Assembly: GCF_003852425.1 (NCBI RefSeq)
Contig: NZ_QAJN01000016.1
Coordinates: forward strand, 1-64,000
Reading direction: 5' to 3'
DNA length: 64,000 bases
Origin: Paucibacter sp. KBW04
GTDB taxonomy: Bacteria; Pseudomonadota; Gammaproteobacteria; Burkholderiales; Burkholderiaceae_C
A program made the translations under genes and the position numbers. The stretch's first letter is position 1, and each line of letters starts with the position of its first letter. Positions 4,662 through 38,982 of this stretch are shown here, piece after piece. A model generated the notes under the pieces. It did no database searches. It was not told where the DNA came from and was given only the letters and a program-made list of their open reading frames with translations.

Positions 4662-4810
4662 CAAGCGATCGAACTCGCCGTCCTTCTCCAAGATCAAAGC
4701 CCTGACTTTGAAACTTCGAAAGGTACTCGGCTTTCGTTTTGCACCGTTTGTCTCCTCCACCGCCTCCATGGTGGATTCAGCCCGGACTTGCAAAAGTTCG
4801 GGCTTTTTTT
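4662..4810 (+). ncRNA. Candidate small RNA or terminated 5' leader upstream of ilvA
   Basis: A strong intrinsic terminator (AGCCCG-G-ACTT, loop GCAA, AAGT-T-CGGGCT, then seven Ts) ends at 4810, about 100 bases before ilvA. It lies on the ilvA strand and follows a plausible promoter, with no gene in between. The predicted ~150-nt RNA also contains the small hairpins CGAAAG/CTTTCG and CCACC/GGTGG, and a CUCCUCC-type anti-Shine-Dalgarno stretch near 4751-4767. No leader ORF with Ile/Val/Leu codons is present, so a classical peptide attenuator is unlikely. It is either a free-standing trans-acting small RNA or a terminated leader controlling ilvA. Confidence 0.35.
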
Positions 4811-4911
4811 CGTCTCAAGACCAGCGCATGCCCGGCCCAGCCGCCTGTAAGCAGGGCCTGCGACGCCCTGACTTATCATGCTGCACTGCAATAGATTGCA
4901 ATGGAGACTTC

Positions 4912-36146: not shown

Positions 36147-37283
36147 TCAGCCGCGAGCGCTCTTGACCGCCTCGCTCAACACCCCCAGCACGGCTAGCGA
36201 ATCGTCCCAGCCCAGGCAGGCGTCGGTGATGCTCTTGCCGTATTCCAGCTTCGATGGATCGTCCTTGCCAGGGCTGAACTTTTGCGCGCCGTCGTTCAGA
36301 TGGCTTTCCACCATCACGCCGAAGATGCTCTTGCTGCCCGACTTCATCTGCGCGGCAATATCGCGCGCCACCTCCAGCTGGCGCAGATGCTGCTTGGAGC
36401 TATTGGCATGCGAGCAGTCAATCATCAGGGTGGTATCCAGCTTGGCCGCGGCCAAGTCCTTGCAGGCCACGGCCACGCTTTCAGCGTCGAAATTGGGCGC
36501 CTTGCCGCCGCGCAGGATGACATGGCAGTCCTTATTGCCCTTGGTCTCGACGATGGCGACCTGGCCGTTCTTGTGCACCGACAAGAAGTGGTGCGGCCTG
36601 GCAGCGGCCTGGATGGCGTCGGTGGCGATCTTGATATTGCCGTCGGTGCCGTTCTTGAAGCCGATCGGCGCCGACAAACCAGAAGCCAGCTCGCGGTGCA
36701 CCTGGCTCTCGGTCGTGCGTGCGCCGATGGCGCCCCAGGAGATCAGATCGCCGATGTACTGGGGCGAGATCACGTCCAGGAACTCCGAGCCCGCCGGCAT
36801 GCCCAGTCGGTTGATCTCCAGCAGCAATTGGCGGGCGATGCGCAGGCCCTCGTCGATGCGGTAGCTCTCATCCAGATAGGGGTCGTTGATCAAGCCCTTC
36901 CAGCCCACCGTGGTGCGCGGCTTCTCGAAGTAGACGCGCATGACGATCTCCAGCGTGTCGGCGTACTTCTCGCGCTGCACTTGCAGGCGGCGGGCGTACT
37001 CCACCGCAGCGGCCGGGTCGTGGATGGAACAGGGGCCGATGATGACCAGCAAGCGGTCATCTTTGCGCTCCATGATTTTGCGAATGTTCTCGCGCGTGCC
37101 GCTGATCAGCTTTTCCATCGGCGTGCCGCTGATGGGGAAGAAGCGGATCAGATGCTCGGGCGGGGGCAGCGGAGTGACGTCACGGATGCGCTGGTCATCC
37201 GTTTGGCTGGTCTTGTCCTGCGGGGAGTACCAGCGTTCGGCCTGGTGTTCCGCTTTCTCATGCTTGGCATTCTTGGCATTCAT
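36147..37283 (-). CDS. aroG: 3-deoxy-7-phosphoheptulonate synthase (DAHP synthase, class I)
   Basis: This 378-aa enzyme condenses phosphoenolpyruvate and erythrose-4-phosphate in the first step of the shikimate pathway. Family signatures are LLVIIGPCSIHDP (metal-binding Cys), MRVYFEKPRTTVGWKGLINDP, the PAGSEFLDVISPQYIGDLISWGAIGARTTESQVHRELASGLS region and DCSHANSSKQ. The class I-alpha architecture (AroF/G/H type) implies feedback inhibition by an aromatic amino acid; which one cannot be read reliably. About 50-200 bases upstream lie a Phe/Tyr/Trp-rich leader ORF and a terminator/antiterminator pair, described separately, which strongly suggest transcription attenuation by aromatic tRNA charging. 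tldD lies upstream on the same strand. Confidence 0.96.
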   Translation of the reverse strand: MNAKNAKHEKAEHQAERWYSPQDKTSQTDDQRIRDVTPLPPPEHLIRFFPISGTPMEKLISGTRENIRKIMERKDDRLLVIIGPCSIHDPAAAVEYARRLQVQREKYADTLEIVMRVYFEKPRTTVGWKGLINDPYLDESYRIDEGLRIARQLLLEINRLGMPAGSEFLDVISPQYIGDLISWGAIGARTTESQVHRELASGLSAPIGFKNGTDGNIKIATDAIQAAARPHHFLSVHKNGQVAIVETKGNKDCHVILRGGKAPNFDAESVAVACKDLAAAKLDTTLMIDCSHANSSKQHLRQLEVARDIAAQMKSGSKSIFGVMVESHLNDGAQKFSPGKDDPSKLEYGKSITDACLGWDDSLAVLGVLSEAVKSARG

Positions 37284-37339: not shown

Positions 37340-37426
37340 AAAAAAAAACCGCCGGGCTTGGCTGCCGGGCGGTTTTCTGAGATCTGCTGCGCTATCGCGT
37401 GTTCGCGTCATCGCCTCTCAGCCGCC
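37340..37426 (-). promoter_or_regulatory. Transcription attenuator of aroG (antiterminator and terminator arms)
   Basis: Read 5' to 3' on the minus strand. Segment 2 is GGCGG-CTGAGA (37426-37416). Segment 3 is TCTCAG-AAAA-CCGCC (37382-37368), which pairs with segment 2 over 6 + 5 bp with a four-A bulge. Segment 4 is GGCGG (37353-37349). AAAACCGCC-C-GGC pairs with GCC-C-GGCGGTTTT around the loop AGCCAA, leading into nine Ts (37348-37340). Segment 3 is shared, so terminator and antiterminator exclude each other. Segment 2 begins 10 bases after the last aromatic codon of the leader ORF. The leader stop codon places a terminating ribosome over the start of segment 3, which would prevent antitermination. 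An alternative reading, a plain tldD terminator, does not explain the leader peptide or the antiterminator. Confidence 0.75.
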
Positions 37427-37481
37427 TGGGGCTAGAGAACCAAAAATACGCAAAAAAGAAGGCCGCGGGGCGAGAAATCAT
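37392..37481 (-). CDS. Aromatic-rich leader peptide of aroG (29 aa)
   Basis: The ORF starts at 37481 and reads MISRPAAFFFAYFWF then SSPRRLRGDDANTR, stopping with TAG at 37392. Codons 8-15 include five Phe, one Tyr and one Trp, in a protein of 29 residues located directly upstream of DAHP synthase. This is the classical control-codon run of a ribosome-mediated attenuator. A ribosome waiting at these codons would leave segment 2 free to form the antiterminator. No Shine-Dalgarno is visible before the ATG, but an extended -10 element ends 8 bases upstream, so the transcript may start at or next to the ATG. The same frame is open further upstream inside tldD, but that part is a shadow. Confidence 0.75.
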   Translation of the reverse strand: MISRPAAFFFAYFWFSSPRRLRGDDANTR

Positions 37482-37488
37482 GGGCTTG

Positions 37489-37497
37489 AATGTAGCA
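37489..37497 (-). promoter_or_regulatory. Extended -10 promoter element for the aroG leader
   Basis: The minus-strand TG-C-TACATT (37497-37489) lies between the tldD stop and the leader ATG. There is no -35 box at the right distance, which is tolerated by extended -10 promoters. The predicted start at about 37482 would make the leader peptide leaderless. Read-through from tldD is an alternative source of the transcript. Confidence 0.4.
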
Positions 37498-37518: not shown

Positions 37519-38982
37519 TCAGGCGGTTCCGCCCACCGTGAGGCCGTCGATGCGCAGCGTTGGCTGGCCCACGCCCACCGGCACGCTCTGACCTTCTTTT
37601 CCGCACACGCCGACGCCGGTGTCCAGCTGCATATCGTTGCCAATCATGGTGACGCGGGTCAGGGCCTCGGGGCCGCTGCCGATGATGGTCGCACCCTTGA
37701 CGGGGTACTGGATCTTGCCGTTCTCGACCCAGAAGGCCTCGCTTGCGGAGAACACAAACTTTCCGCTGGTGATATCCACCTGGCCGCCGCCGAAGTTGCT
37801 GGCGTAGATACCCTTCTTGATGCTGGCGATGATTTCCTGCGGGTCTTTGTCACCGCCCAACATATAGGTGTTGGTCATGCGGGGCATGGGCACATGGGCA
37901 TAACTCTCACGTCGACCGTTGCCGGTGGGGGCCACCTTCATCAGGCGCGCATTCATCGCGTCCTGGATATAACCCTTCAAGATGCCGTCCTCGATCAGCA
38001 CATTGCGCTGCGAGGCACAGCCCTCATCGTCCACATTCATGGAGCCACGGCGATCTGGCAAAGTGCCGTCGTCCAAGACCGTCACGCCCTTGGCCGCCAC
38101 GCGCTGACCGATGCGGCCGGCAAAAGCGCTGGAGCCCTTGCGGTTGAAGTCGCCCTCCAGGCCATGGCCGATGGCCTCGTGCAAGAGCACGCCGGGCCAG
38201 CCTGGACCTAAGACCACGGTCATCTCGCCGGCCGGGGCGGGGCGCGATTCCAGATTGGTCAGGGCCGCCGTGACGGCTTGCTCAACATAGCTGGCGATCA
38301 TCTCGTCGGTGAAGTAAGCCAGGCCGAAACGGCCACCGCCGCCACCCGAGCCCACCTCGCGACGGCCATTGCTCTCGGCGATCACGGTCACGCTCAGGCG
38401 CACCAGGGGGCGCACATCGGCGGCCAGGGTGCCGTCGGCACGCGCCACCAGCACGACTTCATGCTCGGCGGCCAGGCCGGCCATCACTTGCGCCACTCGC
38501 GGGTCCTTGGCGCGGGCCATGCGCTCGGTGCGTTCCAGCAAGGCCACCTTCTCGGCACTGTCCAGGCTGGCGATGGGGTCGTCCATGCCGTAGAGCGCGC
38601 GGCTGCCGGCCACGGTGCCGGTGCTGGGCACTTTGACCCGGCGGCTCTGGCCGGCGGCGGCGATGGAACGCACGGTCAGCGCGGCGTCCATGATGGCGGC
38701 CTCGGAAATATCGTCGGAATAGGCGAACGCGGTTTTCTCGCCCGTCACCGCGCGCACGCCCACACCTTGGTCGATGCTGAAGCTGCCGCTCTTGACGATG
38801 CCCTCTTCCAAGCTCCAGCCCTCGGCGCGGGTGGTCTGGAAGTAGAGATCGGCGTCGTCGACGCGATGCTCGGTGATCAGACGCAGGGCTTTGGTCAGCA
38901 CCGCTTCGCCGAGGCCATAAGGCTCAAGCAATTGGCTACGGGCTGCTACCAGGCGGGCAAGTGTGGGTTCGCGCGAAATCAT
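37519..38982 (-). CDS. tldD: Metalloprotease TldD
   Basis: This 487-aa protein is the TldD half of the TldD/TldE (PmbA) protease, which cleaves peptides such as modified microcin precursors and unfolded chains. The zinc motif [11 protein letters not shown] (HExxxH) is intact near residue 260, and [28 protein letters not shown] and the [15 protein letters not shown] motif are typical. It starts [24 protein letters not shown]. It is upstream of aroG on the same strand, and its stop lies 38 bases before the aroG leader ORF. The partner pmbA is not in the window. Confidence 0.95.

Follow-up and report, generated by a model that had tools for sequence, protein, structure and literature searches.

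DAHP synthase governs carbon flow to all aromatic amino acids, and in Escherichia coli its gene aroG is controlled by TyrR. A study of gammaproteobacterial regulons, which in its available part deals with DNA-binding regulators, assigns control of aroG to TrpR in Pasteurellales and to TyrR in Vibrionales (PMC5343134). The DNA in front of a type I DAHP synthase gene of Paucibacter sp. KBW04 (minus strand of positions 37481-37340 in the window, that is, the whole 64 kb stretch of DNA analyzed) raises the question of whether expression of this gene is set by a leader RNA and the ribosome that translates it. Based on the sequence and on its comparison with relatives, we conclude that the element is very probably a ribosome-mediated transcription attenuator, tying DAHP synthase expression to the charging of aromatic tRNAs.

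Predicted leader peptide and competing hairpins at the KBW04 locus

The putatively regulated gene (36147..37283, minus strand) encodes a type I DAHP synthase of the aroG/aroFGH family, with matches to TIGR00034 (529.7 bits, cut-off 173.2) and PF00793 (314.2 bits). Since the protein falls below the cut-off of the narrower NCBIfam AroG model (539.8 versus 568) and above that of the AroH subfamily model (501 versus 463), 'aroG' serves as a working name here; its best solved relatives are chains of the Phe-regulated AroG of E. coli. The upstream neighbor, given for context, is the metalloprotease gene tldD (37519..38982, minus strand; NF008006, 663.8 bits), whose 3' end, on the same strand, is 37 nt away from the leader.

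The leader peptide ORF (37392..37481, minus strand) comprises 29 codons followed by TAG (MISRPAAFFFAYFWFSSPRRLRGDDANTR), and an aromatic ORF is also present in relatives. Its predicted control codons 8-15 (37437..37460, minus strand) read Phe-Phe-Phe-Ala-Tyr-Phe-Trp-Phe, seven of the eight being aromatic, and the window holds no other ORF of 8-45 codons with at least five aromatic codons in nine. The GGCGG of segment 2 (GGCGG-CTGAGA; 37416..37426, minus strand), the putative 5' arm of an antiterminator, begins 10 nt past the last aromatic codon; its GGC is invariant and the next two G are nearly so among 52 aligned sequences. Segment 2 (37426-37416) is fully paired with TCTCAG (37382-37377) and CCGCC (37372-37368) of segment 3 (TCTCAG-AAAA-CCGCC; 37368..37382, minus strand), leaving AAAA bulged, and the 2:3 stretch folds at -23.1 kcal/mol. 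Segment 3, with ACCGCC invariant in 52 of 52 sequences, would act both as the 3' arm of the antiterminator and as the 5' arm of a terminator: the same CCGCC also pairs with the GGCGG of segment 4 (37353-37349), which is followed by T9 (37348-37340), together forming a predicted intrinsic terminator (segments 3:4; 37340..37376, minus strand; fold -19.2 kcal/mol). The GGCGG of segment 2 and that of segment 4 are thus competitors for a single CCGCC. The T run is separated from the aroG ATG (37283) by 56 nt. Segment 1 (37430..37443, minus strand) overlaps the last aromatic codons and is the predicted 5' arm of a 1:2, or protector, hairpin (fold -14.1 kcal/mol). As a whole, the 181-nt region folds no better than usual (z -1.62; 15 of 200 shuffles equal or better). 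A further ORF of 43 codons (37411-37280, minus strand) begins directly downstream of GAGAGG and ends in an ATGA that joins its stop codon to the start of aroG.

The locus combines three parts of an attenuator: a short ORF rich in codons for the pathway's products, an intrinsic terminator before the gene, and an antiterminator that would exclude the terminator as a kinetic switch. The first-pass annotation had described the 29-codon ORF with its aromatic codons 8-15, the perfect pairing of the arm that begins ten bases later with TCTCAG-AAAA-CCGCC, and the sharing of CCGCC with a terminator ending in nine T, 56 bases before the DAHP synthase gene. All of this holds on the sequence, and the pairing also on folding. 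Its ribosome geometry had to be corrected in one respect. A ribosome at the stop codon had been said to cover the distal half of segment 3; with the stop at leader nt 88-90, segment 3 at nt 100-114 and the leading edge of the ribosome some 10 nt beyond the A site, coverage would extend no further than about nt 100, where segment 3 has its first base. The stop is also more distant from segment 2 than in the majority of relatives: measured from the start of GGCGG to the end of the stop, the distance is 35 nt in KBW04 versus 24-25 nt in 23 of 52 representative sequences (defined below).

Conservation among aroG homologue loci

Relatives were drawn from 18 genomes of the same genus and 80 named loci. 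The leader scan covered 450 nt per locus, so that absence refers to these 450 nt, and 'homologue' denotes 59-100% protein identity, so that some loci may not be orthologues. Of 112 scanned loci, 77 have a leader in which at least four codons in nine are aromatic, with a GGCGG arm after its start; the 35 loci without it include the two other DAHP synthase loci of the KBW04 genome and 12 loci of a paralogue with 56-58% identity. Loss of the aromatic run or of the paired arms in relatives, which the first-pass annotation had named as a refutation, was not what the comparison showed. Both a leader (four or more aromatic codons in nine) and a GGCGG terminator arm are kept at 76 of 97 non-duplicate homologue loci, one of which (L058) has upstream DNA of only 10 nt.

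A set of 96 homologue loci, which leaves out L001-L003, L034 (a duplicate of L012), L058 and the 12 paralogue loci L022-L033, was compared with controls. A short ORF in which six or more codons in nine specify Phe, Tyr or Trp lies upstream at 72 of these 96 loci. The controls yielded such an ORF in 2 of 1920 block shuffles and in none of 96 reverse strands, 93 regions following aroG, 96 stretches within aroG or 12 regions preceding the paralogue of 56-58% identity. Lowering the cut to at least 5 of 9 yielded 75 loci, against no reverse strand, 19 shuffles, two downstream regions and none inside aroG or at the paralogue. The CCGCC...GGCGG-T terminator, in turn, was present at 76 of the 96 loci and in 1 of 1920 shuffles.

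Genera carrying the element include Rhizobacter, Pelomonas, Variovorax, Polaromonas, Acidovorax, Hydrogenophaga, Comamonas, Limnohabitans, Caballeronia, Paraburkholderia, Massilia, Rugamonas and Janthinobacterium. An ORF with at least 5 of 9 aromatic codons was missing at 21 of the 96 homologue loci, among them those of Polynucleobacter, Thauera, Azoarcus and Methylotenera, and the element was not seen at two of the three Cupriavidus loci scanned. Within the own genus, 15 of 18 loci have the leader, the exceptions being L018-L020 (genomes G012, G015 and G017). These three loci keep a T-run hairpin between tldD and aroG, and L019 and L020 have extra DNA inside, as judged by eye.

The hairpins of these last loci bear on a different explanation of the whole arrangement, namely that the T9 hairpin merely terminates tldD, that the aroG promoter lies downstream and that the aromatic ORF is incidental. 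The position of tldD would suit this, as it lies on the same strand 37 nt before the KBW04 leader and is found upstream at 58 of the 76 leader loci, and so would the retention of a T-run hairpin without a leader at L018-L020. However, the element is still there at the 18 of 76 leader loci where no same-strand tldD was seen upstream (about 900-1300 nt covered) and at the nine of the 58 where tldD is more than 600 nt away. Moreover, ORFs with at least 6 of 9 aromatic codons are absent from the controls but for 2 of the 1920 shuffles. On this comparison, termination of tldD is not a sufficient explanation.

We thinned the 76 leaders at 86% identity to 52 representatives. L074 is not in the alignment because its terminator (GGCGGTTC...) is off pattern, though a hairpin was found there. 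Before segment 2, at least three Phe codons are present in 51 of the 52 representatives, at least one Tyr codon in 50, at least one Trp codon in 40 and all three residues in 38; all six Oxalobacteraceae-type representatives lack Trp in this part. The first-pass description of a Phe/Tyr/Trp-rich leader needs a correction in this respect: as 12 of the 52 representatives have no Trp codon ahead of segment 2, the leader codons are mainly Phe and Tyr.

The same counts can be read in two ways. The element might sense mainly Phe, with the Tyr and Trp codons riding along or tuning the rate, as reported for Corynebacterium aroR. That Phe is the most constant residue and that Trp is absent before segment 2 in those 12 representatives are in line with this, as is the statement, in the accessible part of a review, that Tyr availability is without effect at aroF of Corynebacterium glutamicum (PMC11802643). 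The recurrence of Tyr in 50, of Trp in 40 and of all three residues in 38 of the 52 representatives argues the other way. Sensing of mainly Phe is, in our estimate, a serious possibility that falls somewhat short of probable.

Between genomes, leader residues swap among Phe, Tyr and Trp, yet stay aromatic. The frame of GGCGG relative to the ORF varies (29, 21 and 2 of the 52 representatives), which suggests that the RNA rather than the end of the peptide is conserved. This matters for a reading in which control is exerted not through tRNA charging but by a free aromatic amino acid that stalls the nascent chain, as in TnaC, or through translational coupling. The overlap of the 43-codon ORF with the aroG start as ATGA in KBW04 would fit such a reading. 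On inspection, though, the peptides are alike in little but their aromatic content, their ends vary in frame and length, and the CCGCC...GGCGG-T terminator recurs at 76 of 96 loci; we consider control by stalling or coupling very improbable indeed. As a side observation, Phe codons are used at a TTT:TTC ratio of 148:84 in the leaders of the 52 representatives versus 66:341, the opposite preference, in aroG of the same genomes (Fisher p ~2e-34, uncorrected for relatedness).

Folding and ribosome geometry

For the attenuator, a ribosome stalled within the aromatic run would have to leave segment 2 accessible. The last aromatic codon lies 8-17 nt ahead of GGCGG in 49 of 52 representatives, and with the ribosome edge placed 8 to 14 nt past the A site, GGCGG is left free by 353 to 296 of the 355 aromatic codons. 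We then folded partial leaders consisting of the RNA up to segment 3 only, setting the ribosome edge 10 nt beyond its A site. The probability of the antiterminator, P(2:3), reached at least 0.5 in 52 of 52 representatives when the ribosome sat at the best of the aromatic codons at which GGCGG stays accessible, compared to 47 of 52 at the first and 32 of 52 at the last aromatic codon. Without a ribosome, the median P(2:3) was 0.05, with 34 of 52 below 0.5; shuffling the ORF part raised this median to 0.66, with 475 of 1040 below 0.5. When the stretch between the cores was shuffled, P(2:3) was at least 0.9 in 786 of 1040 cases, versus 50 of 52 native sequences. For a ribosome at the stop codon, P(2:3) is zero by construction.

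Complete leaders behaved differently at equilibrium. The terminator had a probability of at least 0.5 in 52 of 52 representatives without a ribosome, and in 49 of 52 (0.999 in KBW04) when the ribosome was stalled as far along the aromatic run as a free GGCGG allows; under the same stall, 2:3 reached a probability of 0.5 in 3 of 52. As equilibrium folding favors the terminator even with a stalled ribosome, antitermination would have to be kinetic, with 2:3 being trapped, and the outcome in these 49 of 52 complete leaders slightly reduces our confidence in the attenuator reading. The advantage of the terminator in every ribosome state tried (49 to 52 of 52) would also be expected from a hairpin that only ends tldD.

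The first-pass annotation had looked to covariation in both stems, and this was seen in one of them. The pair adjoining the invariant 3:4 core covaries (G-C 35, A-U 13, U-A 1, unpaired 3; n = 52), whereas the 2:3 core is without covariation because the GGCGG and CCGCC cores are invariant or nearly so. RNAalifold on the 52 sequences recovered the terminator and nothing else, missing 2:3 for the same reason. In terms of duplex energy, the 2:3 extension has a slight advantage over shuffles (mean z -0.86; 40 of 52 lie below the mean), and the 1:2 duplex is no better than composition shuffles (mean z 0.009). Across relatives, the statistics for 1:2 are therefore mixed.

Distribution across genomes

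A covariance model, R1, was built from the 52 representatives and run on 399 genomes of the order. Full-length matches with an E value of at most 1.3e-8 came from 103 of them (a manual count of 104 rows), the cut having been chosen after the loci had been inspected; some of the 103 are training sources, namely the own genome, G188 (the source of L060) and perhaps others. In the KBW04 genome, R1 matches once at full length and 13 times in part. Twelve of the 103 matched genomes are from the own family, and none of the 20 unmatched genomes listed is. By tblastn, AroG lies downstream in 30 of the 30 best R1 matches and in all 12 of the weaker full-length matches above the cut that were inspected. 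Among 274 genomes of the class, R1 found five matches at E 1e-6, three in the own family and two in f63, a family outside the order. Within f63, 14 of 60 genomes have full-length matches, and 12 of 12 loci inspected combine an aromatic leader with AroG. A tblastn search of plasmids made no addition to the spread. The attenuation reading of the first-pass annotation is well backed by comparison, through 72 of 96 homologue loci and 103 of 399 genomes.

Several matches stood apart. At two of the 12 weaker loci above the cut (L164 and L165, in G337 and G308), a full-length R1 match precedes aroG and the aromatic run has been lost, a sign of decay or of an altered signal. One assembly (G318, contigs C105 and C119; listed contamination 5) has the element twice at full length. 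Weaker full-length matches (L155-L162; E 3.4e-7 to 5.0e-5) were dropped, as 0 of 8 precede AroG. Four of these and a further locus (L155, L156, L158, L159 and L183, all of family f28) have a conserved aromatic leader, FNAYFYWYRS, and a hairpin before an operon without aroG, which consists of a 234-codon ORF (its L155 counterpart without a Pfam match) and a small ORF resembling membrane proteins; this operon lies downstream of an ETF-QO-like gene. L157 shows a short Leu-rich frame (MELFIAALLSLLLLSRL, found by eye) and a T-run hairpin ahead of what we take to be a GNAT-like and a leuA-like ORF, and it is probably a Leu attenuator.

Predicted start of the leader transcript

A predicted extended -10 element, TGC-TACATT (TGCTACATT; 37489..37497, minus strand), ends 7 nt before the leader ATG of KBW04. 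The pattern TGnTAnnnT, with its end 6-8 nt ahead of the leader start, is shared by 35 of 52 representatives, by 50 of the 76 leaders and by 15 of 15 leaders of the own genus, and TAnnnT is found at 6-8 nt in 36 of 52 representatives; according to shuffles, the chance of a box ending 5-8 nt before the ATG is about 0.002 per sequence. We split the representatives post hoc into 36 of the Comamonadaceae/Sphaerotilaceae type, including KBW04, and 16 others. The box at 6-8 nt occurs in 35 of the 36 and in none of the 16, and a Shine-Dalgarno-like triplet in 3 of 36 and 7 of 16, respectively. In the Burkholderia and Oxalobacteraceae types, -10-like boxes are seen by eye about 25-45 nt upstream. Loci from the search of the order have the box at 7-8 nt in 13 of 29 cases and lack it in 16, with at least one repeat among them (L148 is L060). 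All 12 f63 loci have TGnTAnCA(A/C), its end 7-9 nt ahead of the start, a pattern that was written after viewing them.

With the box this close to the ATG, the leader mRNA of the box-bearing representatives and of the own genus is probably leaderless, a new point about this element. The presence of a promoter-like box right before the leader in 35 of 52 representatives also speaks against an aroG promoter located downstream of a mere tldD terminator, an explanation that, all points considered, we judge unlikely.

Relation to known systems

Rfam attenuator families include Trp and Phe leaders. At the gathering threshold, an Rfam search of the window returned no family at the element, and at E up to 1, a search of the loci of 12 relatives gave seven matches, all outside the element. 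Elsewhere in the window (4749-4811, plus strand), a match of 61 bits to RF02278, the Betaproteobacteria toxic small RNA, was noted.

The Phe attenuators of E. coli have Phe-rich leaders and competing hairpins. Like the KBW04 element, pheA (with pheL) and pheST are described, in the available part of the source, as having a leader peptide and attenuation by Phe-charged tRNA (PMC11802643). The genes differ, being those for chorismate mutase-prephenate dehydratase and Phe-tRNA synthetase. As far as can be judged from the sequence, the KBW04 element appears to be a new, widespread case of this known type of switch, with aroR-aroF of C. glutamicum as its closest known counterpart. The attenuators of that species were reportedly found to be leaderless by Neshat et al. 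in 2014. According to the accessible parts of two reports, aroR-aroF likewise concerns the DAHP synthase step and has aromatic leader codons, Phe-Tyr-Phe (PMC4046766, PMC11802643), and its attenuation responds to Phe and not to Tyr limitation (PMC11802643). In contrast to KBW04, it belongs to another phylum and has a Phe-Tyr-Phe motif, with Trp not mentioned in these parts; sequence homology is not expected.

Two further systems resemble the KBW04 prediction in single traits, each according to the available part of its source. The leader of C. glutamicum ilvBNC holds codons for three amino acids (Ile, Val and Leu), and its start site lies one nucleotide from the leader start codon (PMC11857589); it differs in serving the branched-chain pathway and in its phylum. 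The leader RNA of Sinorhizobium meliloti trpL begins at the ATG of the leader ORF (PMC7298713), but there the codons are for Trp and the gene is trpE(G), and the leaderless start is established, whereas for KBW04 it is predicted. No description of the element in Burkholderiales was found in open PMC papers; Vitreschak 2004 and Lopatovskaya 2010 might hold a prediction. For Burkholderia cenocepacia, the accessible part of one study reports 82 short 5'UTRs, possibly including that of aroG (PMC5688073).

Discussion

The mechanism we propose for the attenuator would begin with RNA polymerase starting at the leader AUG or within 1-2 bases of it, the resulting leaderless mRNA being translated from its 5' end. 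With enough charged tRNA-Phe, tRNA-Tyr and tRNA-Trp, the ribosome would clear the aromatic run and overrun segment 2 while segments 3 and 4 are being synthesized; 3:4 would then form and transcription would end at the T run. If charged tRNA is short, the ribosome would stall in the aromatic run and cover segment 1, so that segment 2 stays free. The 2:3 antiterminator could then form ahead of segment 4 and would have to last until the polymerase is past, upon which aroG would be transcribed. Without translation, the 1:2 hairpin would tend to sequester segment 2, making termination the default.

A more far-reaching version of this attenuator can be put forward. One leaderless leader peptide may sense all three aromatic tRNAs where the shikimate pathway begins, a shortage of any of them opening DAHP synthase. 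Such a sensor would be old and common to many Burkholderiales families and to one or more families of the class that lie outside the order, a -10-like box being fixed 6-9 nt ahead of the start in both. The small leaderless mRNA left by termination could also act in trans, as reported for S. meliloti trpL. Taken together as one claim, these three parts remain tentative, and we give them slightly less than an even chance of all being right.

The element raises the questions of whether a single leader reports on three tRNAs and whether attenuator leaders commonly start leaderless. For strain engineers, it would offer a defined site for lifting control of aromatic production. In nature, it would give a regulator to the DAHP synthase of many soil, water and plant-associated Burkholderiales.
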